DNA of 64,000 bases from Bacteroides sp. (GTDB lineage: Bacteria > Bacillota > Clostridia > Lachnospirales > Lachnospiraceae). The translations under genes and the position numbers were made by a program. Positions 20,378 through 53,773 of the stretch are shown here, piece by piece. The stretch covers positions 1 to 64,000 of the forward strand of contig JAMPBO010000007.1 in the NCBI GenBank assembly GCA_023666705.1. The letters are read 5' to 3'. Position 1 is the first letter of the stretch. Every line of letters starts with the position of its first letter. Under the pieces are notes generated by a model. It did no database searches. It had not been told where the DNA came from and saw only the letters and a program-made list of their open reading frames with translations.

Positions 20378-20505
20378 CACACATTTCATCTTACGGACGG
20401 CAAGAATGAAAGGGCTGCCGCAGTAAAGAGTTAAGGCACATGGTTGCTTAACTCCCTACTGCGGTAGCCCTCTTTAATGTACAAACGTCAAGATGAAATG
20501 TGTGT
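20377..20505. repeat. 16-bp inverted repeat flanking the terminator (copy of the histidine kinase tail)
   Basis: ACACACATTTCATCTT at 20377-20392, directly at the glucosidase stop, is the exact reverse complement of 20490-20505, which lies inside the 3' coding end of the convergent histidine kinase gene. A terminator hairpin lies between the arms, so the two mRNAs would carry complementary tails. Confidence 0.8.
20411..20475. terminator. Large bidirectional intrinsic terminator
   Basis: A 15-bp stem (AGGGCTGCCGCAGTA with TACTGCGGTAGCCCT, one G-T pair) is topped by a second 8-bp stem (GAGTTAAG/CTTAACTC). It is followed by TCTTTAAT on the plus strand and TTCATTCTT on the minus strand. It separates the convergent glucosidase and kinase genes. 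Confidence 0.9.
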
Positions 20506-21502
20506 ATTCCCCCAATCGGCTGCGAACGGTTATTTTGCCTCCCATTCCCTCCACGATGGACTTGGTCAGGGACAGCCCGATTCCCACACTGTTTGGGTTT
20601 ACGTCCTTATTTACCCTGTAAAAACGTTTAAAAATATTTGGCAAGTCCCCATCTGGTATTCCCATTCCGTTATCCTTGACATATATTCTTGTGTACATGG
20701 ACGTTTTTTCAACCTCAATTTCGATTTCCGCATTTGATGGAGAATAATCCGATGCATTTTTTAATAGGTTGATTATGCCCTCAACAAGCCAGTCTCCATC
20801 GCACATAAGCTGTTCATTTCCGTCACAGCTCACATGTACGCTTTGTTCTCTTTCCTGTGTAAGGTATGTGACACCCTCCACAGACCGGCAAAGCAGCTCC
20901 CGCAAATTGCAGGGTACATTTTCAAATTGAATGGCACCCGCCTCAATTCTTGCAAGCTTGAGCATGGATAACACCATCCACTCCATTCGCGTAAGCTGGT
21001 TTTTGGATTCACTTATTATCTCTTTTCTTTTTTTGTCCTCCATCACCCTGTCATCGTACAGCAAATCCATAAATACGGTAAGAGCGGCAAGCGGTGTTTT
21101 AAGCTGATGGGAGATATCCGACATGATATCCCTTAAAAAATTTTTTTCCTCCTGCTCCTTATCCTTGCTGTCCCTAAGTGCACCGACCAACTTATAAAGA
21201 TTGGAGTAAAGCTCTCCAAGCTCTCCCTGCTCGTAAGGTTCCGGCGGTATGTCATGATTATCCAACAGCTTCATCATAACATCCGTTGCCTGTCGGACAT
21301 CCTTACATATATGCCGAAGCTCCAGGATTGCAATTACATATATGATTACTTCCACGAGAAAGCATGCACCTATCATCATCCACAGTCTTGCAGTAAATTC
21401 ACGTAAAACGGCATACGCAGCCGCAGAAAATCCCATTAACAGCAGAATTCCCCACAATATATAATATTTGTTAAATTTTCTTATTTCATAGCTGTCCTTC
21501 AT
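20474..21502 (-). CDS. Sensor histidine kinase
   Basis: A 342-aa sensor. Two membrane spans near residues 14-58 are separated by only a few residues, so there is practically no extracellular domain. Then come the phosphoacceptor SDISHQLKTPLAALT, the N box LLKNASDYSPSN and the G boxes KDNGMGIPDGD and GIGLSLTKSIVEGMGG. Such intramembrane-sensing kinases often read the state of an ABC transporter, and this one is adjacent to a permease/ATPase module. The gene starts 12 nt after the response regulator. Confidence 0.93.
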   Translation of the reverse strand: MKDSYEIRKFNKYYILWGILLLMGFSAAAYAVLREFTARLWMMIGACFLVEVIIYVIAILELRHICKDVRQATDVMMKLLDNHDIPPEPYEQGELGELYSNLYKLVGALRDSKDKEQEEKNFLRDIMSDISHQLKTPLAALTVFMDLLYDDRVMEDKKRKEIISESKNQLTRMEWMVLSMLKLARIEAGAIQFENVPCNLRELLCRSVEGVTYLTQEREQSVHVSCDGNEQLMCDGDWLVEGIINLLKNASDYSPSNAEIEIEVEKTSMYTRIYVKDNGMGIPDGDLPNIFKRFYRVNKDVNPNSVGIGLSLTKSIVEGMGGKITVRSRLGEYTHFILTFVH

Positions 21503-21514
21503 ACGAACCTCTTT

Positions 21515-22195
21515 TTAAAGCTTCTTAAATCTGTAACCGACACCCCGCACCGTTTCTATATAGCTGCTGTCCTCTCCCAAACGGTCCCGCAGACGTTTCA
21601 TGTAAACGGAAAGTGTATTGTCGTCTATAAACTCGCCATCAATGTCATACAGCTTTTCCAGCATGGTCCGCCGCTCTAAAACATTTCCTGCGTTCATAAG
21701 TAAAATTCTAAGCAGCTTAAGCTCGCTTGTCGTACATTCCACTGTTTTCCCACCCTTGAAAAGTGCAAACTCATCCACATGGAATTCGTGACTGCCAAAG
21801 GAATATACATTCTGGCTCCTGCCCTCCCTGTAAGAGCTTCTTCTGATATTCGCCAAAATACGTGAAAGGAGCTCCTTTACACGATACGGTTTCGTCACAT
21901 AATCATCCGCACCAAGCTCAAGCCCCTGCACAATATTTGCCTCCTCCGATACGGCAGAGAGAAATATAACAGGCACATGGCTTCCCTTACTCCTGATTTC
22001 CTCGCAAAAGGAAAAGCCTGTGCCGTCAGGCAGCATTACATCAAGTAATATCAAATCTATATTGTTGTCGTAAAGCTTCCGTGCAGTCTCAATCGTTCCT
22101 GCCCGTACCACCTCATATCCGTCAGACTGCAGTGCATATTCCGTCCCCATGGCAAGGGCAAAATCATCCTCCACCATCAAAATTCTGTATGCCAT
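21515..22195 (-). CDS. OmpR/PhoB-type response regulator
   Basis: A 226-aa regulator: receiver domain with DD near residues 9-10, phospho-Asp in LILLDVMLPDG and Lys in TKPYRVKELL, followed by a winged-helix domain with the ELKLLRILLMNAGNVLERR start and GVGYRFKKL end. It partners the downstream kinase. The TTACA-ATTT-TGTAA site upstream of the transporter genes is a candidate target. Its leader contains the GATGTTCAA motif 7 nt before AGGAGG. Confidence 0.94.
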   Translation of the reverse strand: MAYRILMVEDDFALAMGTEYALQSDGYEVVRAGTIETARKLYDNNIDLILLDVMLPDGTGFSFCEEIRSKGSHVPVIFLSAVSEEANIVQGLELGADDYVTKPYRVKELLSRILANIRRSSYREGRSQNVYSFGSHEFHVDEFALFKGGKTVECTTSELKLLRILLMNAGNVLERRTMLEKLYDIDGEFIDDNTLSVYMKRLRDRLGEDSSYIETVRGVGYRFKKL

Positions 22196-22212
22196 AAAAA
22201 CCTCCTGGGATT

Positions 22213-22221
22213 TTGAACATC
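22213..22221 (-). repeat. GATGTTCAA leader motif, copy 2 (short form)
   Basis: On the minus strand GATGTTCAA is followed 7 nt later by the GGAGG of the response regulator gene starting at 22195. The 5' part of the leader family is not present. Confidence 0.45.
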
Positions 22222-22280
22222 ATTTTGAAACTATAACTATTATCCTTTTATATTGTAACTCATCACAGGAAAAAAGGCAC

Positions 22281-23561
22281 CTATTTTCTTATAGCCTCCA
22301 GAGGATTTAATTTTGAAGCCCATCTTGCAGGTATATAGCCTGCCAAAATTCCCAGAACGGTGGACGTAATGATTGCCACAAAAACAAGCCACGGCGGAAT
22401 AACCGCAAGCACCGTTCCTTTTTCATAATCAAGCAGTGCTACGGCAACCTTGTTTATAATACCCTTTATTCCGTACGACAACCCTACACCAAACAAACCT
22501 CCTGCAAATCCTAAAACACCCGATTCAAACAAAAACATGCCAAGCAGCTCGTCCGTATCACAGCCGATAACCTTAAGCATACCAATCTCATTGATGCGGT
22601 CATAAACCGATGTTGTCATGGTATTGCTGATTCCGATTATGGCAACAACAAGTGCAATGGTTCCGATACCGCCCAAAAGGAGCTGTATCATTTTAATCTG
22701 CTTTTTTGCACTTTCCAGATATTCCTTTGCATTTGATGTTTCATATCCCATATCCTGCAGCTTTTTTACAACAAAATCCACATTCTGTATATCATCCACA
22801 ACAACAACCGCACTGGTGTAAATCCATTCCTTATATGCATTTCCATTTGCATCCGTCGGCTGTATGTATAAGCTGTTATTTTGGCTGTTTCGTTTTAAAT
22901 ATTTTTTCAGTTTATCCAAATCACAGTAAATACTCTGGGACTGCAGCGAGTAATCCTCCTCATCACCTGCAAGCACACCTGTGACCTTAAATTTTGCAGA
23001 AAAAGCAGCGTCACCATAACCAAATTCCACATTTACAGGTGTGTTTACCAGTGCATCCAGCCCCTTACCTTCTCCCTTTGAATATGAAAGTCCCGATTTG
23101 TAATTATAAAAAAACAATCCCATGGAGTTTCCCAAAATCAGCCCTGGTTTATTACCACTATTCTCAAGTGAGGAATGATCCGAAAGCGTAAGCTGCTCAA
23201 GCTGCTCTGACGGTATTCCGACAATATCAGTGTATGCACTGTATTTCCCTATTTCCAGCGTGGCACCGATCTCATATTGGGGATACACATAGGAAACCCG
23301 CTCTACATCCCTGAATTTTTCCAGCGTCCGATCCGTCAAAAGCTTACTTTTTTCCTTGTAGGACGCTCCCCCTGATACGGTAATGGTTTTTACGGTATTT
23401 TCATTTTCAAACTCGGACAGAAGCTCTTTTTTTACACCAAAACCAAGTGCAAGCAGGGATACGATGGATATAACTCCAATTGTAACCCCAAGCACGGTGA
23501 GCACCGTTCTTGCTTTTCTCCGTTTCATATTCATAAGACTTAACCGGAACATCCAGCCCAT
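22281..23561 (-). CDS. ABC transporter permease, MacB/FtsX type
   Basis: A 426-aa permease with the MacB/FtsX layout: one N-terminal span (ARTVLTVLGVTIGVISIVSLL), a large extracellular domain with GNSMGLFFYN and a strongly charged middle, then three C-terminal spans ending AGYIPARWASKLNPLEAIRK. It works with the ATPase at 24494-25159. Its ATG shares one base with the stop of the upstream CARDB-like gene, indicating coupling. Confidence 0.93.
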   Translation of the reverse strand: MGWMFRLSLMNMKRRKARTVLTVLGVTIGVISIVSLLALGFGVKKELLSEFENENTVKTITVSGGASYKEKSKLLTDRTLEKFRDVERVSYVYPQYEIGATLEIGKYSAYTDIVGIPSEQLEQLTLSDHSSLENSGNKPGLILGNSMGLFFYNYKSGLSYSKGEGKGLDALVNTPVNVEFGYGDAAFSAKFKVTGVLAGDEEDYSLQSQSIYCDLDKLKKYLKRNSQNNSLYIQPTDANGNAYKEWIYTSAVVVVDDIQNVDFVVKKLQDMGYETSNAKEYLESAKKQIKMIQLLLGGIGTIALVVAIIGISNTMTTSVYDRINEIGMLKVIGCDTDELLGMFLFESGVLGFAGGLFGVGLSYGIKGIINKVAVALLDYEKGTVLAVIPPWLVFVAIITSTVLGILAGYIPARWASKLNPLEAIRK

Positions 23562-24484
23562 CAGAATTCCTCCAATATCTTTTTCTTTCTTCTGTACCTC
23601 ATAACCGAGAGTATAATGATAAGGATTAACAAAGCGACAGCCACAATTGTTATGGTTGTTGTCTTTGATATGCCCTCTTTCTTCGTCTCCTTTAAAGTCG
23701 TCAGATTACTGTAATCAATTGCATCCACATAGATGGATATCTCCTGACTTTCCTCGAACTTATTTCCCTGCTTGTCCTCATATGTAATTATCATGGAATT
23801 TTTGGATGCCATTTCATTGGAATGTGTCGTCTTCGTTATGATATCGATATTTCCACTCTTCCCTGATTCTATGTTCCCGATATAGCTTACCTGTTCATCT
23901 ATATTTTCTCCCTCAACCCTGACGGAAACATTGTAAAGCGTGCCTTCCCCTAAGTTGTTTACCATTCCCGTGATTTCAACATCATCACCAAGCTTTACCG
24001 AATCGTCCGTTAAAACATCTGTAATTGACAGCCTTTGCTTCAGGGAAATCGGAATAAAAATGTTATCCTCCACCGTGTAGGAATATCCGTTTACATCTTC
24101 ATATTCAGACTTAATAGTAAGCTTATATGCCTTTTCCTCCAAACCCTTAACTGCCATCATGTCAAATGTAATTTCCATTTCCTGCTCTGCCGGAAACTCA
24201 CTGATATACTCCGTGCCTGCTCCCTTTGCAGGTAACAGTTCTCCCGCCTCAGATGAAACCGTAAGCTTTAAATTCCGTACTTTTTTGGAAGCCGTATTTT
24301 TCAGTGTCAGGATAAGCTTAAAGCTCTCACCCGAGACAACCGCAGTTGGATTCAATTGATAATCCGTTACCATTACCTTTGGTTCAGCCGCCTTGGACTG
24401 CATACCTGCAAAGGAAGCTATGGCAAGCATAACAGCCATTATAAAAATATATATATTCTTTGAGTTCTTTTTCGTCTTATACAT
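23561..24484 (-). CDS. Secreted, C-terminally anchored protein with CARDB/NEW3-like repeats
   Basis: A 307-aa protein with an N-terminal signal (IYIFIMAVMLAIASFAGMQ), two all-beta repeats recognisable from V(S/V)...FKLILTLKNTASKKVRNLKLTV and DDVEITGMVNNLGEGTLYN, and a C-terminal span TTTITIVAVALLILIIILSV followed by a basic tail. CARDB/NEW3-type domains bind adhesion or carbohydrate partners; here the protein sits between ATPase and permease and may be an extracytoplasmic adaptor playing the part of MacA. That role is inferred. Confidence 0.75.
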   Translation of the reverse strand: MYKTKKNSKNIYIFIMAVMLAIASFAGMQSKAAEPKVMVTDYQLNPTAVVSGESFKLILTLKNTASKKVRNLKLTVSSEAGELLPAKGAGTEYISEFPAEQEMEITFDMMAVKGLEEKAYKLTIKSEYEDVNGYSYTVEDNIFIPISLKQRLSITDVLTDDSVKLGDDVEITGMVNNLGEGTLYNVSVRVEGENIDEQVSYIGNIESGKSGNIDIITKTTHSNEMASKNSMIITYEDKQGNKFEESQEISIYVDAIDYSNLTTLKETKKEGISKTTTITIVAVALLILIIILSVMRYRRKKKILEEF

Positions 24485-24493
24485 AAGCTCCTC

Positions 24494-25159
24494 CTACTCT
24501 ACAATTTTTCCATCTGAAATCTTTATGATCCTGTCTGCCTCTCTTGCAAGGTCGATATTGTGTGTGATTAACACTAATGTCTGGTTTAATTTCTTTACAG
24601 AATCATGCAAAAGTGCCATAACCTCATTTCCGTTTGCAGAGTCAAGTGCACCCGTAGGTTCATCCGCAAGTATGAGGGATGGTCTGTTCGCCAATGCCCT
24701 TGCAATTGCGACACGCTGCTGCTGTCCACCAGAAAGCTGATTTGGCAAGTGCTTTCTCCGGTCCTTGAGTCCAAGCATTTCTATTATACTATTGATAAAT
24801 TCCTTGTCCGGCTTTTTGTGGTCAAGCAATATCGGCATACTGATATTTTCCTCAACCGTAAGCACTGGTATTAAATGATATGCCTGAAACACAAAACCTA
24901 TTTTTCGTCTTCGGAATACAGACATTTCATCATCCGACAGTGTGGTGATATCCTTTCCGTCAACCGTGATATTTCCGCTTGTTGCGGTATCTACGCCACC
25001 CATAACATGAAGCAGGGTTGATTTCCCTGAGCCTGACGCTCCCACAACTGCCAAGGTTTCCCCTTTTTCAATGGTAAGGCTCACATCATCCAGTGCCCAC
25101 ACCCTTGTATCTCCTGCTCCGTATATTTTCGTCACATGCTCCATTTTAACTATTTCCAT
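24494..25159 (-). CDS. ABC transporter ATP-binding protein (MacB/LolD type)
   Basis: A 221-aa ATPase. Walker A is VGASGSGKSTLLHVMGG, the signature LSGGQQQRVAIARAL, Walker B LILADEPTGALDS and the switch His LVLITHN. This is the common MacB/LolD/BceA class that works with FtsX-type permeases. The gene is preceded by a structured leader copy (25177-25230) and a hairpin, so it may be regulated separately from the permease upstream. Confidence 0.96.
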   Translation of the reverse strand: MEIVKMEHVTKIYGAGDTRVWALDDVSLTIEKGETLAVVGASGSGKSTLLHVMGGVDTATSGNITVDGKDITTLSDDEMSVFRRRKIGFVFQAYHLIPVLTVEENISMPILLDHKKPDKEFINSIIEMLGLKDRRKHLPNQLSGGQQQRVAIARALANRPSLILADEPTGALDSANGNEVMALLHDSVKKLNQTLVLITHNIDLAREADRIIKISDGKIVE

Positions 25160-25176
25160 ATGGTTTCCTCCAATCT

Positions 25177-25230
25177 TTGAACATCAGCCCATTCCAAATT
25201 TGCTTTCAGCAAATGGGCTGACGCTACGTG
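25177..25230 (-). repeat. Structured leader element, best-folding copy (A)
   Basis: Read on the minus strand the element has arms CGTCAGCCCATT and AATGGGCTGATG (12 bp with one G-T), enclosing an internal TTTGCT-GAA-AGCAAA hairpin, then GATGTTCAA followed 5 nt later by the GGAGG of the ATPase gene. The same layout recurs at 41259-41334 and 47659-47733 with compatible stem changes, and the 3' motif alone recurs at 8953, 22213, 31908 and 39088. It is not described in families I know. Confidence 0.8.
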
Positions 25231-25256
25231 TCAAGTTTTCATAGAAAACTTGACAC
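25228..25256. repeat. 13-bp perfect hairpin beside the leader element
   Basis: GTGTCAAGTTTTC and GAAAACTTGACAC form a perfect 13-bp stem with a 3-nt loop, between the permease stop and the leader element. There is no U-run on either strand, so it does not look like a plain terminator; it may be a processing or stability element. Confidence 0.75.
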
Positions 25257-25270
25257 AACCTTTCTATATA

Positions 25271-27637
25271 CTAATCTCCGCCTGCATTTAAGTCATTTAA
25301 AATTCCCTTGCTCATCCGTATAACCGGAAAATAAATCGAACCACAAAGCACCAGCGTTGATACGATAACCCCAATCACTGCCGCCCTGACAGGATATACC
25401 AGATCAATCTGGAATATGGTAATTATCGCCTGCCGAAGCGGTATCAGTCCTGCAAAGCCTGCTACACACCCAATCAGGTTTGCAAGCAGTGAAGTAATGA
25501 TACCTTCCAGCATAACAATATAGCAAAGCTTTTTTTTCGATACGCCTATCACCCTAAGCTGTGCAAGCTCACCCCTTCTCAGATACAAATTGCTGGCACT
25601 CGTATTTATGATATTCACGGATGTCATTACGACAATAAACAAAATAAACATACTGATATATCTTATAGATTTCTTTAAGTTTACCCCCGAAGATGCATCA
25701 TATGCAAAGCTTGATACATATACATTCGTGTCACTTAAAAAATCATCTGAGAGTAGCAAATCCATCGTTTCCGAGGTCAGCCCCTGCCCTTTTTTTATTT
25801 TATATTTCAGTCCGTTACTGTCTTTTTCTCCAAGTCCGGTCATTGCATAATAATTTTCCAATGGTACAATTGCCGTTATATTTTCTAAATTAAGCTTTTC
25901 CTTATCATACTCCACAATTCCCTCTACCGTGTAGGTTTCGTAAGCTCCTTCCTCAACAAGCTCATTCCAGCAATCATAATAGAGTCCGGAAAAGCTAAAA
26001 TCCTCTGGTTTTTTATCCTTATCCATCGTTGCATACTCAATCCACCGTTCGGAAAACATGGTGTTAAATTTCTCAAAGTCTACAAGATTAATGGTATCTC
26101 CCACCTGATAATCATTTTCCTGATAATATTTCCCATAAAGGTCTTCCGGCGTAAGGCTCTGGTCATCATCGTCCTCCTCTTCATACCGTGGATACGCTAT
26201 TTTTTGGCGTTCAATTATCAGACCATGATCGCTGACATCTAATGTTCCGTCCACCAAAAATGCCTCATGCTTCTGGAATTCCTCACGGCTATATCCAAGC
26301 ACATTTATTTGACTAAAATATACTTTATTTATCATATGCTCTTCACTATGTTCATTTAAATTCAACTCATCAATCCACGAGCCTGACCAGGTACCTTTGA
26401 TATATTCATCATTATATTTGCTATAGAGTGCTTCATAATCGGCAACCGGAATCCTTGCAATGTACATCGGCTGAATATCCTCAACATTTGGTTCACTGGC
26501 AAACCGTTCCAGTACATCATATGACGGCATTCCTGCTTTTGCGTTTTCAATGTCGACCTCACGGCCTACCGGATTAAAACAGTAAAATTGGTACTCTCCA
26601 TATTGACCCATTCTACGGTCCAGCAAATCATTTATCGAGCTTGACACTACCGAAATCATAATAAAGGCAGCGATTCCCAGTGCAAAGGTTGCCACGGACT
26701 TGAAAAACCTGCTCTTATTCCCCATAAGGCTTTTGTAGGCGTAATCTCCCTCCACACCAAAAAGAACTCCAAAAATACTCTTTCTTCTCTTCTTCAGCTT
26801 CTTTTTCTTTATGTTAAAGTTTCCCCGCACCGCTTCAACCGGCGATATTTTTTTGACAATGTTGCTATTTTCTTTCATAACGAAGTATAAATCTCCGATA
26901 AATGCCACAAGCACAAACAAAACAGGAACAATATGAAGCCCCACCTTTATGTTTGAAACCGCTCCTATTATGGCAGCAACCAAAAAACCGGTCAGCATTC
27001 CAAGTGCCACGCCTGAAATTTCCTGAATGAAGCCCATTAAAAATATAATGGTTTTAAGCTGTCCCCTTGTGGCACCGATACACCTTAAAATTCCATAGTC
27101 CTTCACCTGCTCCAGAGTGTTCAGCTGGATGGAATTCCTTATGATTCCAACACCGATAATTGCAAATATTACCGACAGGAACAAGAACAAAATAAGCGTG
27201 ATGTATACCGTGTCACCTGCATAGCCCTGCAGATAATACGAGGCAAGCGTATCGTTTATTTTTCCTTCAATTCCATATTCTGCTGTGAGTGTATCCAAAT
27301 ATTGGTTCATTCTATATGGATTTTTTGTATTGATGAACAACGCGTTCTTGATGTAGGAACCATTCTTATATGCTGCATAATAATCGCCTATGTAGGCATC
27401 CTTGACAAATTCCTGATTGATAATGCCTGTTACCTGCTCCTCCGTCTCAGGAAACATGACAATTTCATAATTTGCCTGCTCACGCACCCTGTCCCTATTG
27501 TTAATAAAATTACTGAAATACAAGGTTAAAATAACAAACAATGCACCTGCAGCCAATGCGACTCCCAAAATTGTGAGCATAGTACGTTTTTTTTGATATT
27601 TCAGATACAATTTTGAAAGCTGGTTATAACGCTCCAA
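25271..27637 (-). CDS. Large FtsX-type ABC permease
   Basis: A 788-aa permease, first gene of the module. It has an N-terminal span (RTMLTILGVALAAGALFVIL), a first FtsX core near residues 150-260 (FAIIGVGIIRNSIQLNTLEQ), a second near 305-340, a long extracellular stretch, and a final FtsX core with RGELAQLRVIGVSKKKLC. The layout resembles ten-span BceB/YtrF-like permeases. The start is TTG with GGGAGGG 8 nt upstream. A TTACA/TGTAA operator candidate and a hairpin lie just upstream. Confidence 0.9.
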   Translation of the reverse strand: MERYNQLSKLYLKYQKKRTMLTILGVALAAGALFVILTLYFSNFINNRDRVREQANYEIVMFPETEEQVTGIINQEFVKDAYIGDYYAAYKNGSYIKNALFINTKNPYRMNQYLDTLTAEYGIEGKINDTLASYYLQGYAGDTVYITLILFLFLSVIFAIIGVGIIRNSIQLNTLEQVKDYGILRCIGATRGQLKTIIFLMGFIQEISGVALGMLTGFLVAAIIGAVSNIKVGLHIVPVLFVLVAFIGDLYFVMKENSNIVKKISPVEAVRGNFNIKKKKLKKRRKSIFGVLFGVEGDYAYKSLMGNKSRFFKSVATFALGIAAFIMISVVSSSINDLLDRRMGQYGEYQFYCFNPVGREVDIENAKAGMPSYDVLERFASEPNVEDIQPMYIARIPVADYEALYSKYNDEYIKGTWSGSWIDELNLNEHSEEHMINKVYFSQINVLGYSREEFQKHEAFLVDGTLDVSDHGLIIERQKIAYPRYEEEDDDDQSLTPEDLYGKYYQENDYQVGDTINLVDFEKFNTMFSERWIEYATMDKDKKPEDFSFSGLYYDCWNELVEEGAYETYTVEGIVEYDKEKLNLENITAIVPLENYYAMTGLGEKDSNGLKYKIKKGQGLTSETMDLLLSDDFLSDTNVYVSSFAYDASSGVNLKKSIRYISMFILFIVVMTSVNIINTSASNLYLRRGELAQLRVIGVSKKKLCYIVMLEGIITSLLANLIGCVAGFAGLIPLRQAIITIFQIDLVYPVRAAVIGVIVSTLVLCGSIYFPVIRMSKGILNDLNAGGD

Positions 27638-27688
27638 TAAAATCCCTCCCGTCCATTTGGAAATCCTGCTACAGAAAAACGCAAAACA

Positions 27689-27730
27689 CCCATGTAATAT
27701 AACCAGTATATAACGGCTATATTACATGGG
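27689..27730 (-). terminator. Hairpin after the lipoprotein gene (terminator or promoter-proximal structure)
   Basis: Perfect 13-bp arms CCCATGTAATATA/TATATTACATGGG enclose a 16-nt loop and on the minus strand are followed by GTTTTGCGTTTTT. This fits a terminator for the lipoprotein gene, though it also lies between the operator at 27745-27758 and the permease gene. Confidence 0.65.
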
Positions 27731-27744
27731 CGTGACAAGCTTTC

Positions 27745-27758
27745 TTACAATTTTGTAA
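27745..27758. promoter_or_regulatory. TTACA-N4-TGTAA operator candidate for the ABC/TCS module
   Basis: TTACA-ATTT-TGTAA (14 bp) is a dyad of the shape reported for BceR-like response regulators (TNACA-N4-TGTAA). It lies 108 nt upstream of the large permease gene and downstream of the lipoprotein stop. The response regulator at 21515-22195 is the natural candidate to bind it. Confidence 0.55.
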
Positions 27759-27792
27759 TTCTATAGTCCCTGTGACCGAAACAAAAAACAGG

Positions 27793-29148
27793 TTAATACA
27801 AAATTTTACTATAGGAACCACTCCCAGGGACATTATAAATGATGGAACCATCCAAGGCACATACTGTTACAACTGCCGTTTTCTCCTTCGTATCTCTTTC
27901 ACTGCCTGAGTCGTAATAACGCCATACAGGAACAACCGCATATGAAATTCCATCATATGTTATATATACATACCCAAACTCTACACTGCCCACAGTATAA
28001 ACTGCAAATTCCTTACTTATCATTCTTTCAAATTCTTCCTTGGCAAACTCATTTACCTGTTCAAAGGACAACATTTCCGATTGCTTGGCTGCCGTCTCCG
28101 GCTCCATATAATTTCCTAAGATGGAAAAGCTACACACACCATTATTATTCACACATACCACCACATAAGGCTGCACTGCCGCAAAATCAATCCTACCTGC
28201 TTCCATAGTAGTCTGCACAGGCTCGTATGCAAACAAAAGATGTGTGCCATTTTCTGACATACCAAAAACCATCGTATATCCATCCACAGCAAGCTCTGTT
28301 TCGGATACCATTACGTTATTTTGCACCGTATGCAAAAGTTCCATGTTATCTAATCCAAGCCCATCCAGAAATTGCTTTGCCGAAGCTTCCGCACCCTCAC
28401 GATTGCACGGATTGTCTACATTTACTTCATTCATTCCAAGTGTCTCTACAACTATATAATCCTCATCCAGACAATTTGCATCCAAATATGCCAATCCCAA
28501 CAAATCATCTTTCTCATACGTCATAGCCCACAATTTTCCATTTACATTACCCCTTAAATATGCCTGCTCATTGGTAAACGTGTTCACTTCTTCACCCTCG
28601 TCGCTCACCGATATGGATGTCTCTGTTACTGTATAAACAATCTTATCATCCGGATATTCCACATAATTATCCTCGTTATAATTTTCAAGCATATACTCTA
28701 TGTACGATACATTGCTATTCGCTTTATCTTCATATCGTTCTTGAAAAAATTGAAGCTCCGCCTCAAGCTCCGCCCTGCTTAATATACCGTAAGGCTTGAC
28801 GTTGTCATACTCCCCATTGTCAAACAGCTTTTGGGCATATTTCAACACAAATTCATCCTTGTTTTCATATTCTGTTGCCGTGAAGGTAGGTACTTCACCA
28901 TATCCTTCTGCGTATACCTTTGCATCAACAGTTGTAATTCTTCCTCCTGCTTCAACCGTATAGGAAATTGTATCCGGTATCTCATTGCCGTCACTTTCCT
29001 CTGCCGCATTTCCATCACCTGCCTCCATGCCTGCATTTTCCTTTAAATCATATGCGATATCATCCTTGTTTGCCTTTCCACATGCAGAGAGTAAAACAGC
29101 CATTCCAAATATAATCACTGACTTACACACTTTTTTTACAACTTCCAT
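27793..29148 (-). CDS. Lipoprotein of unknown function (paralogue of 36849-38087)
   Basis: A 451-aa lipoprotein: the signal ends in the lipobox LLSACG (Cys near residue 22), followed by an acidic linker (NAGMEAGDGNAAEESDGNE) and then a beta-rich domain. The C-terminus (ISYAVVPVWRYYD...VTVCALDGSIIYN) resembles the C-terminus of the lipoprotein at 36849-38087, which ends VPVWILSDGD...IIINAIDGSVIQLL. The ATG at 29148 is chosen because GGAGGG lies 8 nt upstream; earlier ATGs overlap it. I do not recognise the family with certainty (DUF6034-like from memory). Confidence 0.75.
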   Translation of the reverse strand: MEVVKKVCKSVIIFGMAVLLSACGKANKDDIAYDLKENAGMEAGDGNAAEESDGNEIPDTISYTVEAGGRITTVDAKVYAEGYGEVPTFTATEYENKDEFVLKYAQKLFDNGEYDNVKPYGILSRAELEAELQFFQERYEDKANSNVSYIEYMLENYNEDNYVEYPDDKIVYTVTETSISVSDEGEEVNTFTNEQAYLRGNVNGKLWAMTYEKDDLLGLAYLDANCLDEDYIVVETLGMNEVNVDNPCNREGAEASAKQFLDGLGLDNMELLHTVQNNVMVSETELAVDGYTMVFGMSENGTHLLFAYEPVQTTMEAGRIDFAAVQPYVVVCVNNNGVCSFSILGNYMEPETAAKQSEMLSFEQVNEFAKEEFERMISKEFAVYTVGSVEFGYVYITYDGISYAVVPVWRYYDSGSERDTKEKTAVVTVCALDGSIIYNVPGSGSYSKILY

Positions 29149-29226
29149 GTTCATTCCCTCCATTTTAAATGCCTGACATCATTATTTTATAACTGCATTC
29201 TTTCCTGAGATTACTATAAAATATAA

Positions 29227-32013: not shown

Positions 32014-32871
32014 TCATTCCAATACTTCCAAATTACGGTAATTCAGATAATAGACCAAGGTTGTCAATCCAAGAACAATCGCCGTTACAAGGACTACGCA
32101 TCCCATTGTTATTGCTATATCCAATGATGGATTAATAAAATATCCCGGCATAAACTTCGCCATTTGAGGAAAGACATTGACCAGACCCTTCGATGTGAAC
32201 ATATTTAAGATAAACGGAAACAATGCCGCCATAAACCTGTTTGAAAACCATTTTGAGACTGTCACGCATATGAGGGCAAAAATTCCCCCATAAATAAAAT
32301 TTAAAACAATAAAGCACACCGCATATAAAACAGGATGTTCAAAAAACAGTTCATGCCACAATGCCATGTTGCTTCCGCCCTTCATTGCCAGCAAATCAAT
32401 CCCCACTGCAGGAAGATAGCAGGCAGCGGTCATTATGCTGAGTATAAGGGGCACAGCCACCACAATTCCACCTGAAATAAATGTAACAGTATACTTCGAC
32501 ACAAGATAATCCCTGCGTGAACCCTTTGCAAGAACAGAGGAAATATACCCTGAATTTATGTCATGATAAAGTGACATTCCGTAGGGCATAACAGAAATAA
32601 CAGGAAATATAAAATAAAAAAATGCATTGTACAACGAAAAACCGTCATTCCCAAGCCATCCCTGCAGTATCCCGCATTCAAACCAATCGTCTAAAACTCC
32701 ATACTCCTGTGATTGGAGCATTACTTCCAGCATTTCTTTATTTGGGACATACAAATGAACGTAAATCCATCTTGTATGTAATATCACTATAATAATTCCC
32801 AGAATAATGCTTATCAAAAAGCCTTTCGACCTGAGCATCCTTTTCATTTCATTTTTTAACATGTTTTTCAA
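32014..32871 (-). CDS. ABC-2-type permease-like membrane protein (copy 1)
   Basis: 285 aa with six predicted spans beginning SKGFLISIILGIIIVILHTRW. An R(D/S)Y between the spans and the layout resemble ABC-2 permeases of drug or lantibiotic exporters. The start is probably TTG at 32871 because AAGGTGG lies 7 nt upstream. It is the last gene of the secreted-protein cluster; its partner permease is at 33564-34388. Confidence 0.7.
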   Translation of the reverse strand: MKNMLKNEMKRMLRSKGFLISIILGIIIVILHTRWIYVHLYVPNKEMLEVMLQSQEYGVLDDWFECGILQGWLGNDGFSLYNAFFYFIFPVISVMPYGMSLYHDINSGYISSVLAKGSRRDYLVSKYTVTFISGGIVVAVPLILSIMTAACYLPAVGIDLLAMKGGSNMALWHELFFEHPVLYAVCFIVLNFIYGGIFALICVTVSKWFSNRFMAALFPFILNMFTSKGLVNVFPQMAKFMPGYFINPSLDIAITMGCVVLVTAIVLGLTTLVYYLNYRNLEVLE

Positions 32872-32919
32872 CTTACCGCCACCTTATCATCCTTTTGGAG
32901 AATTGTAAAATCAACGCTC

Positions 32920-33501
32920 TTAATTTAACTGCATCACGTTTATATCCGAAAGCACAATTTCCTTCCTCACAGGATATACCCCGAAAATCAGCCTGTATTC
33001 GGTATTTTCTATATTTTGCCACTCTTTTTTTGATAAATTGTTTTTGTATATTTCGTAAACAATCGTAAATGTATCTCCTGATTTAAAGCTCCCACTTGCC
33101 AACGATGGGTTCATATCGTCAAACAGCATAGGGTCAAAGCTGTTAAAAACATACAGGTACTTTATCGGTATGTAGGTTTCAACCCTTGCCCCATCCGCAG
33201 CAAGCTCAGCCGAAAACTCCACCAACAGGACTTTCCGTTCGCCATCATCAGGGATACTGTACTGCCCATACTGGGGATTTTCCTTGAAAAACGCATCATA
33301 GTCCATCATTGTTGCAGATTGAATCCCATAGTTTATTCCCTTGTATTCCACTTTTTCTGTCTGACCGTATATCTGATATTCGGGGAGAAGTGCATTTTTA
33401 TTTACGTTATATACCCTTATTGCATATAGAACGATGACAGCCAGAATAATCAGACTTACCATGGCTGTCCAAATCCTGCTTCCTTTTATTTTCATTTTCA
33501 T
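32920..33501 (-). CDS. Single-span protein of unknown function in the secreted-protein cluster
   Basis: 193 aa: a basic N-terminus, one span (WTAMVSLIILAVIVLYAIRVY) and an extracellular beta-rich domain of about 150 residues with VLLVEFSAELAADGARVETY and SGDTFTIVYEIYKN. It resembles DUF5028-type proteins from memory. It is encoded between two permeases, so it probably sits on the outer membrane face of the same complex. The upstream 299-aa protein has a similar plan. Confidence 0.6.
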   Translation of the reverse strand: MKMKIKGSRIWTAMVSLIILAVIVLYAIRVYNVNKNALLPEYQIYGQTEKVEYKGINYGIQSATMMDYDAFFKENPQYGQYSIPDDGERKVLLVEFSAELAADGARVETYIPIKYLYVFNSFDPMLFDDMNPSLASGSFKSGDTFTIVYEIYKNNLSKKEWQNIENTEYRLIFGVYPVRKEIVLSDINVMQLN

Positions 33502-33563
33502 TTATGCTTCCTTCCGATGTTTATATTTACTTTCATTCAAATTATGTTTTAAAACGTGACCTG

Positions 33564-34388
33564 TCAATATATGTCTCTTTTTCTTATTATCACATAACCG
33601 ACGAAACAGAATCCCATTATAAGACAGGTAAGATAAATAAGTCCTGTTTTCCAGTCAAGAGTAGCACCTTCTGCCGTATATCTGCACAACATGGCATATC
33701 CGGTCGGCAAAAGAGGATGTGCGTAATATATTGAACAAACAATTATTCCTCCCAGAATTACCATGGCACAAATATCTCCACATAAAAGCGATATTACAAT
33801 TTGAAACATGGACAGTAAAACACCAACTAAAAATGGAATAACTACTATTAATATAAATCTTCCATTATCATGCAACAACAAGGAAAGATTTAAATGTTCC
33901 ATAAAAACAGCATCCACAGCAAACACATTATTTTTTCCTCCAACCCATGAAAATACCATATTTACACCCATAATCGAAGTAAAAAACAGTACGTTTACAA
34001 GTACACACCATATACATTTTGAAAACCACCATATAACTCTGTTGCTGCTTTTTATCATCAGAGTGACCCCATAGTCCTTCATATCTTTTCTTACATAACC
34101 ACCTATAAGATACGCCAGTACCAAGTACTGTGTTACCCATCCAAACGGCAGCGTAAATTTAATACCTGAACCAGATATACAATTATAAGGTAAGCTTCCT
34201 AAAAAGCTCCATGCCCCAAAATCCCACATTGAAAGTCTGCTGTTTGCACGGATACAATCCATACCACTGAAATGCCGATAGCATAAAATGCATGTAATAA
34301 TCTGAAACACAACAGGAGCAATCCATTTGATTTTGCATTCTGCAATCCCCCGATTAAAATCATATTTAAGCATTCGATACAATTTCAT
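33564..34388 (-). CDS. ABC-2-type permease-like membrane protein (copy 2)
   Basis: 274 aa with about six spans (APVVFQIITCILCYRHFSG, MVILGGIIVCSIYYAHPLL and a final GLIYLTCLIMGFCFVGYV). It overlaps the ATPase by 23 nt, which points to one complex. Together with 32014-32871 it would form a heterodimeric membrane domain. Confidence 0.72.
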   Translation of the reverse strand: MKLYRMLKYDFNRGIAECKIKWIAPVVFQIITCILCYRHFSGMDCIRANSRLSMWDFGAWSFLGSLPYNCISGSGIKFTLPFGWVTQYLVLAYLIGGYVRKDMKDYGVTLMIKSSNRVIWWFSKCIWCVLVNVLFFTSIMGVNMVFSWVGGKNNVFAVDAVFMEHLNLSLLLHDNGRFILIVVIPFLVGVLLSMFQIVISLLCGDICAMVILGGIIVCSIYYAHPLLPTGYAMLCRYTAEGATLDWKTGLIYLTCLIMGFCFVGYVIIRKRDIY

Positions 34389-35028
34389 TATTAACTACCT
34401 CTACAATATGACCTTCTTCCATTTTTATAATTGTATCTGCTATTCCTTCCATTTTTTCCTTGTCATGGCATGCAAGAATAATAATTCTATCCTCTGACAA
34501 CAATTCCCTGATTACTTCCCATATCAGTTCGACGCCGTGATCATCAATTGCATTTGTAGGTTCATCCAAAATTATAAGTTCAGGCTCTCCAAGTATGGCA
34601 GCAGCAACTCCTAACCTTTGACACATTCCCAAAGAATAATTAGAATATTTACGCTTATCGGAAGCTGAAAGTCCAACCCGTTCCATTGCCTTATGAATAT
34701 CATTTTCATCAATATTACCTTGTATATCGCCCAGCATCTTTAGATTTTGAAATCCTGTATATGATTTTAAAAATTTAGGATTTTCAATCAAAATCCCTAC
34801 GCTTGGCGGAAACGAAATTTCTTTTCCAAGCAAACAATGATCAAACAATACTTCTCCCGAATCCGGGAACACCAAGCCTGTTATACACCGCATCAGCATT
34901 GTTTTTCCTGAGCCGTTTATTCCTGTCAATCCGTATATATGTCCTCCTTGAAGATTCAGGCATATATTCTCCAATACCGGGACTTTATGTATACTTTTGT
35001 TTAAATTGTTTATAACTAAATTTTTCAT
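34366..35028 (-). CDS. ABC transporter ATP-binding protein (bacitracin/lantibiotic export type)
   Basis: A 220-aa ATPase. Walker A GINGSGKTMLMR, signature YSLGMCQRLG, Walker B LIILDEPTNAID and the switch His in ILACHDKEKM. The short form and the LGMCQRLG signature are common in immunity-type exporters such as those for lantibiotics. It precedes and overlaps a permease gene. Confidence 0.93.
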   Translation of the reverse strand: MKNLVINNLNKSIHKVPVLENICLNLQGGHIYGLTGINGSGKTMLMRCITGLVFPDSGEVLFDHCLLGKEISFPPSVGILIENPKFLKSYTGFQNLKMLGDIQGNIDENDIHKAMERVGLSASDKRKYSNYSLGMCQRLGVAAAILGEPELIILDEPTNAIDDHGVELIWEVIRELLSEDRIIILACHDKEKMEGIADTIIKMEEGHIVEVVNNEIVSNA

Positions 35029-35111
35029 ACAATATTTCCTGTTATTTTCACATCATTACCATTAAATACAAAATATGCAAATTATTTTTAAAATTTTTTT
35101 CAACACATGGA

Positions 35112-36002
35112 TTATATCTCTACCTGCTCCATGGAAAATGTTGAAAATTCATTCAGGCTTCCCCGAAAAAGCTCAAAATATCTTACTCCCTCCTGTTCCT
35201 GAATAATGTTTGTATCACTTGCTGCCTGTCCCACACTGATTACGCTGACATAAAACACAAGCTGGTCATCCCACGATATTGTTTGTTCATTTTGCCTCTC
35301 CCATGTATTCATAGTAAACGTATATATACCAAGTACAAGTTCCCTTGATTCTCCCGATTTAAGGGTTACTTTGCATATAGACGGTGTATCTAGCTTTTCC
35401 TCGTCTCCATTCATATAAAAGCACTCACTCGCACCACCTACTATATAGCCGTTTTCATCTGTGACGTCCATTGATACGGTTCCAAATGCGTTATATTCAA
35501 CTTCAACATTTCCTATATTTTCAATCTCAAAAACATAACAGATAATTAAAAGCCTGTTTTCTTTTTCCATGTCTTCCAATGGTTTGCACATATGTGGACC
35601 ATCAACTCCGGTATCAATCCTGTACTTTTCATTATATTCAGGTATCACTTCCGGTATAGACGCAACATCTTTGATACATCTCACATCCTTGAAGATATAT
35701 TTTATTCCACCTTTTTCGAATGCTTCATATGGCTGAACCTCATTTCCATGTACCGCCTCATATTCCTTGTCTTTTTCCTCATTTTCCTGTAAATTTGCAA
35801 AATAGGAAGTATCATCCACTTCTGTCGAATTACTGCTTTTATCTGAAGTGATATCTTCGCTTTCAATACCTGCATCTATTGTTATAGTTGAATTTGATTT
35901 GTCACCACTCGTATTTTTAATAATGTTCACTCTTATAATAACTGCACATAAAATACAAAAAATCACTCCTGAAATCATATAAATGATTTTTTTGTTATTC
36001 AT
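35112..36002 (-). CDS. Single-span membrane-anchored protein of unknown function
   Basis: 296 aa: an N-terminal span (IIYMISGVIFCILCAVII), a Ser/Thr/Asp-rich linker, and an extracellular domain from about residue 90. I prefer the ATG at 36002; the upstream GTG is nearer to the ribosome site but not better. It resembles DUF5027-type proteins from memory. It lies between the secreted protein gene and the ATPase, so it may hold the secreted protein or receive a signal. Confidence 0.6.
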   Translation of the reverse strand: MNNKKIIYMISGVIFCILCAVIIRVNIIKNTSGDKSNSTITIDAGIESEDITSDKSSNSTEVDDTSYFANLQENEEKDKEYEAVHGNEVQPYEAFEKGGIKYIFKDVRCIKDVASIPEVIPEYNEKYRIDTGVDGPHMCKPLEDMEKENRLLIICYVFEIENIGNVEVEYNAFGTVSMDVTDENGYIVGGASECFYMNGDEEKLDTPSICKVTLKSGESRELVLGIYTFTMNTWERQNEQTISWDDQLVFYVSVISVGQAASDTNIIQEQEGVRYFELFRGSLNEFSTFSMEQVEI

Positions 36003-36084
36003 CGTATGCACGCCCTTTCTCTATTATCAGACCGTCGAAACCCACTCCGACGGTCCTTTTTCAGGTTAAACTCAAACAATTTCG

Positions 36085-36558
36085 CTACTGAATAACAGGA
36101 TAATTTGTCTGTGTGTCCGGGCTCCATGCACCTGAAACTGTCCCCGTACCTACCAACGACCTTATGCCAAGATTTGCATAAGCATATCCATTTTCATAAA
36201 CATAATTTGTCACTCTATACTGTCCTGTGCTAGATACAATAAACCTTGAAGTACATGGGACACGCTTTTTAGTGTTTTCTCCGGTTTCTCCCACAGGTGA
36301 TATATATATGCTTGTTACTCCGTTAAGGCTTTTTCCCCATTTGAAATAAAACTTACTGTTTGTATCCTTTTTACGGTTGTTTTTGGTATACTGGTAACTG
36401 GTATTGCTTGGGGAAACATTATACGTCCAGTTACTATCAGCATTCGATGCAAACACATTGTTCATATTTGTTAAAACACAAAACGCCATCATCATTGTCA
36501 CAATACCAGCCATAATTTTGTTACTTTTTTTTCTTTTATTTATGTATGTCTTTTTCAT
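36085..36558 (-). CDS. Small secreted protein, DUF2712-like
   Basis: 157 aa with a signal peptide (KIMAGIVTMMMAFCVLTNMN, cleavage near VFAS-NAD) and a mature part of about 115 residues rich in Asn, Ser, Thr, Tyr and Gly. It has one Cys. A WTYNVSPSNTSYQYT start and the GAWSPDTQTNYPVIQ end resemble secreted DUF2712-type proteins, which sit beside transporter genes. It may be the cargo or the effector of the ABC system; a bacteriocin-like role is possible but not shown. Confidence 0.65.
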   Translation of the reverse strand: MKKTYINKRKKSNKIMAGIVTMMMAFCVLTNMNNVFASNADSNWTYNVSPSNTSYQYTKNNRKKDTNSKFYFKWGKSLNGVTSIYISPVGETGENTKKRVPCTSRFIVSSTGQYRVTNYVYENGYAYANLGIRSLVGTGTVSGAWSPDTQTNYPVIQ

Positions 36559-36848
36559 AATAAATTTCTCCTTGTTTCTTTTAAATTTCTAAATTCTCGC
36601 CCAAGGTTGTAATTTCGGAGCACACACTCCAATCAGGTAACATTATATACATCCTAAGTATGTGCTTTCTTCATGCCCTCCGTCATGATTACATTTTTTA
36701 CCCACATTCCTCCTTTGTTGTTTAAATTTTTCTTTGTATGTTTTACTTTCCTCCCCTCTGCTTTTACCGTAACAATTCATAAAATCTTACACTGTTACGA
36801 CATACCATGTATGTATTTAATATGCAGTTTGTCCTACACTCATTATTC
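36559..36848. other. Upstream region of the secreted protein gene
   Basis: About 290 nt with no convincing gene. It contains a CGTAACA-N18-TGTTACG inverted repeat (36768-36774 and 36793-36799) and a TTTGTCCTA element at 36828-36836 like the TTTTGTC half-sites at 38176-38274. On the minus strand a 17-codon frame (MWVKNVIMTEG...) follows a GGAGG site at only 1 nt, so it is doubtful. Confidence 0.5.
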
Positions 36849-38087
36849 CTACAACAACTGTATCACACTGCCATCAATGGCATTGATGATGATAAATCTC
36901 TCTGATTGTGTATCACCATCACTTAAAATCCATACAGGAACTATGTTTTGTACATTTGTATCTTCCTCATTTGGGATTGCAAAATATTTAAGCTCAAGTT
37001 TTCTTAGTAAAATTATATTTTCCCTGTCTGCCTTACTGTTCGTTATAATTTCCCTATATATCTCCTTAACCTGCTCAAAATCAAGCAACTTCACATTTTC
37101 CGCTTTGATTTCTGAAATATAGCGTGGTGCATTATATTCCATACTTATTATGCCCTCGTCATTTATATAAAACCTGACATATTCCTGCGAATACTCATCA
37201 ATATACCCAACCTCAGGCATACCTTCCTCTCCACTAAATTCAAAAATATTATTAAAATAAGCATATCGGTCAGCGACATCTATTCCATCGATATTTTTAG
37301 CAAAAAGAACACTATATCCGTCATAATAATTCGTTTCTCTGTCGTCTTTTTCCGTAATATACCAACGGAGTATATTGATTTCCTCTATTCTCATATCTGA
37401 TATCCCCAGCTGCCCAAGTTCATCATAAAAGGTTTCCTCCAGTGTATCCTCCGAAATGTGACATCTGTTGTCCACATCATAACCAGCCATATACCCTTGC
37501 CATCCCAAAGAAAGTTCTTTTACTTCCCTGTCTTTTATGAAATCCCCATAGCTAAACGGAACACATTCAATCAATTCGCTGTTAACCTCCTTATAAGCAC
37601 TAATAACATAACGAACACCATTTCTGATTGCTACATATCCATCGCCTTTATAAGATAACATTTCAAGTTCTTTCTCCGTAAAATTTCCCTTTGCTTCCTC
37701 ACTTTCAATGGAATATACCTCATCAAACTCCATCCCATTAATGTATTCATCCCAAAACCCCTGATTGACTTCCTTTGGTTTTGTTTCCATTACATTTACG
37801 CCTGTTACATCAGGAACAATCACCTCCGCATAAATCCTTACGGTGGAACCGCTTCCACCTGATGTTGCCAAATCCTCCTGCCATACTTCTGGAATGTCTA
37901 AGCTCTCCCTTAGACCTCCCTTTGCAGTCGAAATATCATAATCCTTTTTGTTTTCTGCTTCCTCCGATGTACTCTCTACTTCCTCCGATGTAATGCCAGA
38001 CATATCAACCTTTTCTCTTTTGGTACATCCTGATAACATTATCAAAATGACACACAGCATAACAGCCGTACTCTTCTTTATTTTCAT
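36849..38087 (-). CDS. Lipoprotein of unknown function (second paralogue)
   Basis: A 412-aa lipoprotein with signal and lipobox LIMLSGCTKREK (Cys near residue 20), an acidic Glu/Ser linker, and a long beta-rich domain. The end, NIVPVWILSDGDTQSERF then INAIDGSVIQLL, resembles the 27793-29148 lipoprotein. The start at 38087 (MKIKKSTAVML) is chosen because GGAAAGGGG lies 7 nt upstream. It is the first gene before the secreted protein gene and may be co-regulated with it. Confidence 0.75.
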   Translation of the reverse strand: MKIKKSTAVMLCVILIMLSGCTKREKVDMSGITSEEVESTSEEAENKKDYDISTAKGGLRESLDIPEVWQEDLATSGGSGSTVRIYAEVIVPDVTGVNVMETKPKEVNQGFWDEYINGMEFDEVYSIESEEAKGNFTEKELEMLSYKGDGYVAIRNGVRYVISAYKEVNSELIECVPFSYGDFIKDREVKELSLGWQGYMAGYDVDNRCHISEDTLEETFYDELGQLGISDMRIEEINILRWYITEKDDRETNYYDGYSVLFAKNIDGIDVADRYAYFNNIFEFSGEEGMPEVGYIDEYSQEYVRFYINDEGIISMEYNAPRYISEIKAENVKLLDFEQVKEIYREIITNSKADRENIILLRKLELKYFAIPNEEDTNVQNIVPVWILSDGDTQSERFIIINAIDGSVIQLL

Positions 38088-50448: not shown

Positions 50449-53400
50449 TTACACATTCAGCCACTTGTTTAAGGTTGCAATCACCTGCTTGATATCCAGC
50501 GGTTTTGCAATATGGTGATTCATGCCTGCTCTCATCGCAAACCGCACATCCTCCGCAAATGCATTTGCCGTCAGTGCTATAATCGGAATGTTCTTCAAAT
50601 CCTCCCTGTCCTCCTTGGCTCTTATCTGTCTTGACGCCTCATAGCCATCCATAACAGGCATTTGAATATCCATAAATACAAGGTCATAGTGCCCCTGCTC
50701 CGTCTCCGTAAGCTCCGTTACCGCTTCCTGTCCATCCCAGACATGCTTCACCTCAAGCCCCATGCTCTCCAATATTTCTTTTGCTATTTCCGCATTGATT
50801 TCATTGTCTTCAACAAGCAGAATTCTCTTGCCGTCAAATCTTGCCTCACCCACAATTTCCTTGTAGTTGCTGCCTTCCCCGTCTCCATTCACAAGTCTCC
50901 GGAACAAATACGACAGCCTTGATTTAAATACAGGCTTGCTTATAAAACCGCTGACGCCTGCCTGCTTTGCCTTTTCCTCAATTTCCGACCAGTCATATGC
51001 AGACTGGATAATAATTGCAGTGTCCTCACCTACAATCTCACGTATTGCCCCCACTGCCTCAACACCATCCATTTCTGGCATTTTCCAGTCGAGTATGGCA
51101 GCAAAATAATGCTTTCCTGCATCATGTGCCTCTTTTACCTTTTCGACTGCCGCCTGACCGCTAAGCACCCATTCGCTTTCAATGCCCATCTCGTCCAAAA
51201 TCATACAGGTACTCTCGCATGCATCCTTACTGTCATCAACCACAAGCACAGGTGCCTTCACATACTCTTTAAAGGATATCGTATGGTCATCCTGCAGCTG
51301 CAGATAAATTGTGACAATAAACTTTGAACCCTTCCCTTGTTCGCTCTCGACCCTTATATCTCCACCCATCATGCGGACAATGTTTAACACGATGGAAAGT
51401 CCAAGTCCCGTTCCCTGTATTTTATTGGTTTTTGTATCATTTTCCCTCGAAAATGGGTCAAAAACATGCTCCAGAAAGTCCTTTGACATGCCGATGCCAT
51501 TATCCTCAAAAATAAATTCATAGCATCCCACACTGCTTTGGTTTGTTATCTTTTCCGTAACATACAGGTTGATTTTTCCACCCGACGGCGTATACTTGAT
51601 TGCATTGCCCATAATGTTGAGAAATACCTGCTCGATATGCAGGCTGTCACCTATCACATCATCGTGCTGTATATCCTTTATATACACCTTCATTTCATGG
51701 TTTTTCGCCTCAATCTGCGGCTGGACAATATTCAGCATATTATCAATCAGCTCCTGCAGGCTGAATTCCTCCTCCGCAAATTCCATCTTGCCCGATTCTA
51801 TCTTGCTCATGTCAAGCACCTCATTAATCAGGGTAAGCAGATGCTTGCCTGACGAGGTTATTTTGTCAAGACAGTCCTTGACACGTTTTTTATCGTCAAT
51901 ATGGGCTGACGCAATTGATGTCATTCCTATAATTGCATTCATCGGAGTACGGATATCATGGCTCATACGCGACAGGAAATTTGACTTTGCCTGATTGGCA
52001 CTGCTTGCTGCCTCATATGCCTCCCTGAGTGCAACCTGTGCCATCTTTTCCCTGTCATAGGATTTTTGAAGCATTTCCCAATCCCGCTTCACACGAATCC
52101 GGTACATAACGAAAAACAATATCAACAGCAAAATGAATCCGGTTGCCAACACCAAAACAAGCACAATATGGTCAGTCAGAAAATCCTGCACCGTATATTT
52201 TCCCTCAACATAGGAATTTCGAACCAGTGAGTCTCTGATTAATGCATCATCTATATTATTGATACCTTTATTTAAAATGGCATACAATGTGCTGCTTCCC
52301 CGGTTTACGGCAAAGCAGAACTCCATAACCTCCTCCATTTCTGCCACATGTAAGTTTGCAAACTCATCATGTGCATTCATGTATCTGTGGATAACATCGC
52401 TGTTTACAAGCATACAGTCCACATCACCCTTTTGAATTGCCAAAAGACAATCCTCCCAGCTTTGGTACATTTTCTGCCTGGTGTCAGGGTAATTTACGGA
52501 CAGATAAAATGACTGCTGCGGACTTCCGTTGTAAACCGCAGCACTATCATAAATATCCTTGCTGTAATCTCCCTGATACACAACACTCATATGCGTACTC
52601 ACAATTGAAATTGTCTGGATATAGCCTTGGGTTTCCGAGTACCACAGGTCACCAAAGGTTGGAAATATCATATCAAGCTCCCCAGCCTTTAACGCCTGTA
52701 TCATGGCGTCATATTCATCATAGCATGTACTTGTAAAGGTAATGCCCATATAGTCAGACAAATTCTCTAAAAGCTCAGGAAGGATTCCCAGCAGTTCGCC
52801 GCTGTTTTCGTCCTGATCGCAAAATGGCATATACTCATTCAAATAGCCTACCCTTATCTCACCATGCTCCCCAAGCCACGCCTTTTCTTCGGCATTCAGG
52901 TCTCTTTGTACCGTGCCTCTGTTATAGTATTTGTCCTCAAGCCTTGAAACATAAAACGGAAAATCAGACGATATTTCCCTCTGTGCCACATTCAGCTCCT
53001 GCAGGATGTCCTTACGGTTTTTATTCACAGCAAAATAGTAATCGTATGTGCCGATATTAAACAGCTTTCTATAGCCCTCCATCCTGTCATTTTCTATAGT
53101 GACAATACAGTCCAGCTCACCGTTTTCAATTGCCTGCTTTCGTTCCTCCAATTCGTCATATGGGATAGCTTCACATGTAATATTGTTTTCCTCGGCAAAC
53201 TCTTCTACAAACCTTGCCATATATGTATTACTCTTCACGCCAATGCGTTTCCCATTCAATGCAGAAGGACCATCCGCCATGTCTATGGCACTGTCATCGG
53301 GAACATATATATAATATGTCTCCCCGCCCATTGCGTACTCTGAAAACAGCAGGGATTTTTCCCTGCCTGCATCCTTTGTAACCATTGCCATAATGTCAAC

Positions 53401-53730: not shown

Positions 53731-53773
53731 TCAGTCCTCCTTTACCAGTCAAATAGTACTTACCGTCAATCAA

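Follow-up and report, generated by a model that had tools for sequence, protein, structure and literature searches.

We describe a six-gene cassette on the minus strand of a 64,000-nucleotide stretch of DNA (the window; positions 1 to 64,000 of contig JAMPBO010000007.1, assembly GCA_023666705.1, deposited as Bacteroides sp. and belonging to a gut member of the Lachnospiraceae). The genes, which we call SEC (a small secreted protein), EXT1 and EXT2 (anchored extracellular proteins), ATP (an ATP-binding cassette (ABC) ATPase), and PERM1 and PERM2 (permeases), make up the core set at 32014-36558, and their conservation as a cassette is close to certain. Our preferred reading, to which we give a probability of roughly 55%, is that the cassette encodes a predicted unmodified, Sec-secreted protein bacteriocin together with a self-immunity system resembling LanI/LanFEG. 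Under this reading, SEC would leave the cell via Sec, fold as a small beta-rich protein and attack the envelope of nearby sensitive bacteria, while EXT1 and EXT2 would capture it at the surface of the producer, as LanI does for lantibiotics, and a pump made of ATP, PERM1 and PERM2 would drive it out of the membrane, as LanFEG does.

A wider proposal, which we advance tentatively and at somewhat under even odds, is that DUF2712 proteins such as SEC constitute an undescribed class of unmodified, Sec-secreted protein bacteriocins of Bacillota, often expressed from an agrBD autoinducer operon and served by a modular LanFEG-like pump, with the yybN operon of B. subtilis as a member. If true, several domains of unknown function would gain a role at once, and common gut bacteria would acquire a further class of secreted protein antimicrobials, one missed by the bacteriocin models that we tried. 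Gut agr signalling would also be linked to competition between strains, and the unexplained yybN operon could be put to the test directly in a standard laboratory organism.

The cassette lies in a run of seven minus-strand genes flanked by a trkA/trkH pair and an alpha/beta hydrolase gene:

32014-32871, minus strand: PERM2, ABC-2 type permease with about six spans
32920-33501, minus strand: EXT2, single-span extracellular protein related to DUF5028, a second putative capture protein
33564-34388, minus strand: PERM1, ABC permease related to DUF2705, with about six spans
34366-35028, minus strand: ATP, LanF-like ABC ATPase of 220 amino acids, with Glu at the Q-loop position
35112-36011, minus strand: EXT1, single-span extracellular protein related to DUF5027, the putative cognate immunity or capture protein
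36085-36558, minus strand: SEC, Sec-secreted DUF2712-type protein of 157 amino acids, the putative effector
36849-38087, minus strand: DUF6034 lipoprotein (Pfam 2e-24) with lipobox LSGC; its open reading frame (ORF) extends to 38123, with the likely ATG at 38087

The first-pass annotation of this DNA had described consecutive minus-strand genes, single-span proteins and an ATPase overlapping a six-span permease, and both the ORFs and the hydropathy profiles agree. A single N-terminal span anchors each of EXT1 and EXT2, with the domain outside the cell, PERM1 and PERM2 have about six hydrophobic segments each, and the reading frames of ATP and PERM1 share a 23-bp overlap.

Conservation and distribution of the cassette

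The proposal that these genes would be found together across genomes is borne out. Among the 28 SEC loci for which 4 kb or more of downstream sequence is available, PERM2 is present in all 28, EXT2 in 27, PERM1 in 26, and ATP and EXT1 in 25 each. In the three loci without a separate EXT1, EXT1 and EXT2 appear as a single protein of 404-448 amino acids, the N-terminal half of which is clearly EXT2, the rest being EXT1-like by weak scores only; one locus (L040) has neither EXT2 nor ATP, at the point where its contig stops. No complete SEC locus is without PERM2, so the genes are not found apart as far as SEC is concerned. The pair of anchored proteins, previously thought unusual, is instead the rule for the cassette. 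The DUF6034 lipoprotein, previously counted as a member of the set, accompanies the cassette in three loci only (the window, L060 and L062) and is an accessory gene outside the conserved set.

Matches to SEC, not all of them strong, turned up in 22 of the 299 genomes searched from the same family, and also in a close relative (L023/L060). With profiles, SEC (E < 1e-12) was found in 24 of the 299 genomes; 33 have PERM2, and 23 have the two together. These profiles were built in part from the same 299 genomes, and the fair test is provided by seven genomes that were not used, all seven of which carry the full set if one divergent EXT1 (L094) is allowed. When PERM2 by itself was searched against the genus, it returned 13 strong matches, each of them beside SEC. 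Gene order differs among loci, as do the chromosomal sites, and there is one plasmid copy, on Vescimonas fastidiosa, the only relative found in our plasmid search; together these features fit a mobile set. No relatives were found in a search of viral contigs. A locus from another class (L048) carries the cassette plus a third permease.

Family relationships of the encoded proteins

Apart from the ATPase and the lipoprotein, the window proteins are weak against Pfam, and their relatives were therefore needed. The signal peptide of SEC, at about residues 1-37, is rich in lysine at its start, continues as a hydrophobic stretch and ends at a VFA cleavage site; some 120 residues follow. The window protein scores 18.1 bits against PF10916 (DUF2712), where the curated cut-off is 22, but 8 of 20 aligned SEC relatives match the family (best 1e-34), and a comparison of window-type with DUF2712-type profiles by hhalign gives 99.2% probability (E 1e-19). 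By this sequence evidence SEC is a member of DUF2712, by homology through its relatives, as the first-pass annotation had supposed. Its conserved residues include a C-terminal GxWSPD and an NYVxE-like segment. A search of the PDB with SEC returned no homologue.

For the anchored proteins, DUF5027 is matched by 6 of 18 EXT1 relatives (best 9e-82) and DUF5028 by 4 of 17 EXT2 relatives, which also match DUF4352 weakly. The two proteins are remote homologs of one another in profile comparison (96%), and in the PDB EXT1 finds a weak match to 3cfu (lipoprotein YjhA; E 0.02), the matches of EXT2 being similarly weak. PERM1 relatives match DUF2705 in 6 of 17 cases, PERM2 relatives match ABC-2 permease families, and the two permeases are again remotely homologous (93%). 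The earlier statement that the components have no recognised function holds insofar as our literature search found no paper naming DUF2712, DUF2705, DUF5027, DUF5028 or DUF6034; it falls short in that these Pfam families exist and that a related operon has been named in B. subtilis.

The best NCBIfam model for the ATPase is TIGR03740 (lantibiotic protection) at 155.2 bits, with the runner-up at 120, although the score lies below the curated cut-off of 309.75. In 39 of 40 cassette ATPases the Gln of the Q-loop is replaced by Glu, and Glu at this position is a mark of LanF proteins. Anti-phage defence models matched the ATPase only.

Probable immunity rather than export

The first-pass annotation had likened the locus to a bacteriocin-type effector with export or immunity genes. 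The co-inheritance of a putative effector with an ABC transporter, in the manner of bacteriocin loci, is upheld; between the two functions, our analysis favors immunity. The principal alternative is export or assembly of SEC by the transporter, in which case EXT1 and EXT2 would serve as surface chaperones or adaptors and SEC could be an effector, but equally a signal or matrix protein. We consider this unlikely, if the least unlikely of the alternatives. It would account for the presence of PERM2 in every complete SEC locus, and a structural survey (PMC11466899) places B. subtilis YybJKL (YybJ2KL), of unknown function, among the type V exporters. However, SEC possesses its own Sec signal peptide, and the ATPase best fits the lantibiotic-protection model, carries the Q-loop Glu and has no peptidase domain. 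With a Sec signal in place of a double-glycine leader on SEC, the pairing of such a leader with a C39 peptidase-ABC transporter, as in class II bacteriocins, is absent.

Further evidence for immunity over export comes from loci that depart from the full set, where the transporter persists without SEC even though SEC does not occur without PERM2. Ten PERM2 loci (L079-L088) have no intact SEC nearby, one of them (L088) retaining a broken copy, and almost all of these loci retain the ATPase, the permeases and the anchored proteins, the exceptions being L083, which stops at a contig edge, and L085, which has no clear EXT1. SEC and EXT1 also duplicate as pairs, which is what one would expect of an effector with a matching gene for protection: alternating arrays are found in L061 (8683-13013), L040 (5763-10653) and L095 (7563-9987), with additional, fragmentary or decayed EXT1 copies beside the pairs in L061 and L040. 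Finally, one genome (G332) holds two cassettes in which ATP and PERM1 are nearly identical (98.6% and 94.5%) while SEC, EXT1, EXT2 and PERM2 have diverged (60%, 44%, 47% and 54% identity), and L087 is likewise modular, with EXT1-PERM2-EXT2 present twice and PERM1-ATP once. This pattern also argues for immunity, and we suggest that ATP and PERM1 act as a general motor, with SEC, EXT1, EXT2 and PERM2 forming a specificity module.

The cassettes without SEC could also be taken to mean that the anchored proteins and transporter confer general resistance to foreign antimicrobial peptides, SEC being a decoy or an envelope-stress protein. There is precedent in the Cpr-type transporters, which are LanFEG-like and occur without biosynthesis genes (PMC5786555). 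This explanation appears improbable, somewhat more so than export, because the duplication of SEC with EXT1 and the position of SEC directly behind agrD (see below) suit an effector better than a decoy.

Association with agr and the case for a bacteriocin

In 11 of 29 loci (10 found by pattern and L064 by eye), SEC is preceded on its own strand, at a distance of 149-254 bases, by an AgrD-like ORF; as a control, the pattern matched six times in 126 kb of sequence lying downstream, again on that strand. Pfam matches confirmed AgrB at six loci; a GHKL kinase and a LytTR regulator were confirmed at one. The location of an AgrD-like precursor directly before SEC favors a bacteriocin, and we infer that in many relatives agr would couple the production of SEC to cell density. 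The patchy distribution of the cassette and its plasmid copy point in the same direction, as does the Rok-bound yybN region, reported to be horizontally acquired, which shares this regulator with the antimicrobial operons sboA-alb, sunA and sdp (PMC2978689). As an alternative, SEC could be a protein without a killing role, density-regulated and acting at the surface, in the matrix or on the host, that the transporter and anchored proteins place or recycle. This would agree with agr control, which suits many secreted public goods, and with the lack of an apparent catalytic motif among the conserved residues of SEC, but it is the least probable of the alternatives since it leaves unexplained both the pump and anchored-protein cassettes without SEC and the extra EXT1 copies beside SEC-EXT1 pairs.

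Two observations on regulation stand apart from this argument. In L082, a cassette without SEC, an AgrD-like ORF lies about 740 bases before EXT1 (6149), with kinase and regulator genes. In L066, tandem TGTCGTTC repeats, 21 bases apart, lie about 290 bases before SEC (5190), upstream of the agrD-SEC pair, and resemble the site of a LytTR regulator; a weak counterpart exists in L033. As the repeat is clear in L066, weak in L033 and seen nowhere else, the window included, we set it aside as evidence.

Comparison with known systems

Judged from sequence, the nearest named counterpart appears to be the unexplained yybN operon of B. subtilis (yybN, yybM, yybL, yybK, yybJ). As a control, the DUF2712 protein of B. 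subtilis, which we take to be YybN, exceeds the family cut-off, and the make-up of the operon, presumably with a third permease, fits L048. A DUF2712 gene followed by an ABC ATPase and DUF2705-type permeases is present in both the window and L048. The likeness to the yybN operon lies in this ABC ATPase with separate permeases after the DUF2712 gene (PMC11466899); the window differs in having two permeases and two anchored proteins, the yybN set being compared by description.

LanI and LanFEG provide auto-immunity to lantibiotics, NisI-NisFEG being an example (PMC5786555). The window cassette resembles such systems in its LanF-type ATPase, two distinct six-span permeases, an anchored extracellular protein and a secreted putative antimicrobial (PMC5786555). 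It differs in the sub-threshold score of its ATPase, its second anchored protein and an effector that is a Sec-secreted protein of about 120 residues. Neither the window nor the listed neighbouring ORFs showed a recognisable lantibiotic precursor, modification gene (lanthionine enzymes included) or peptidase-ABC exporter.

Lactococcin 972 is a small unmodified Sec-secreted protein encoded beside an ABC transporter, and SEC, predicted to be unmodified, resembles it in these respects. The relationship does not extend to families, as PF09683 is matched by none of the 20 SEC relatives and by nothing in the window's own genome, and there is no match to an associated immunity model. Against TIGR03608 the ATPase scores 94.8 bits, far below the cut-off of 254.85. 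The TMcin class of bacteriocins (PMC12328743) was also set aside, being a 5.8-kDa peptide, half of it a membrane helix, with a metalloprotease in its operon, unlike the cassette.

Evidence against the bacteriocin and immunity reading

Several results weigh against the reading that we prefer. No homology to a known bacteriocin was found for SEC, its 20 aligned relatives included. AlphaFold models of mature SEC (three sequences) and EXT2 (two sequences) reached a mean predicted local distance difference test score of 41 and 43, and were thus too poor to use for fold comparison. Pairwise ratios of nonsynonymous to synonymous substitution (dN/dS) did not point to positive selection. The window locus and L060 have no AgrD-like ORF before SEC, and the window has no agr module next to the cassette.

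A further difficulty is posed by L060 and L062 (genomes G320 and G309), which keep SEC, EXT1, EXT2 and PERM2 and have no ATP or PERM1 in the locus; PERM1 was not found in a search of either whole genome. Their gene order is SEC-EXT1-DUF6034 lipoprotein-EXT2-PERM2, with the lipoprotein in the place that ATP and PERM1 occupy in the window. The best ATPases of these two genomes are only 41-43% identical to the window ATPase, compared with 53-55% for those in the cassettes of G313 and G332. These loci are not accounted for by a simple pump model. PERM2 may borrow another motor there, or the systems may be decaying, although SEC and PERM2 are under purifying selection between the window and L060.

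Other gene clusters in the window

At 20474-29163, a histidine kinase, a response regulator, an FtsX/MacB-type permease, a CARDB-type secreted protein and an ABC ATPase lie in a row that also includes a second large FtsX-type permease (788 amino acids) and another DUF6034 lipoprotein. The row makes up another ABC/two-component cluster, close to the cassette but unrelated to it. At 50449-56578 there are two adjacent, very large minus-strand genes (1093 and 934 amino acids), the first with a signal-peptide-like start.
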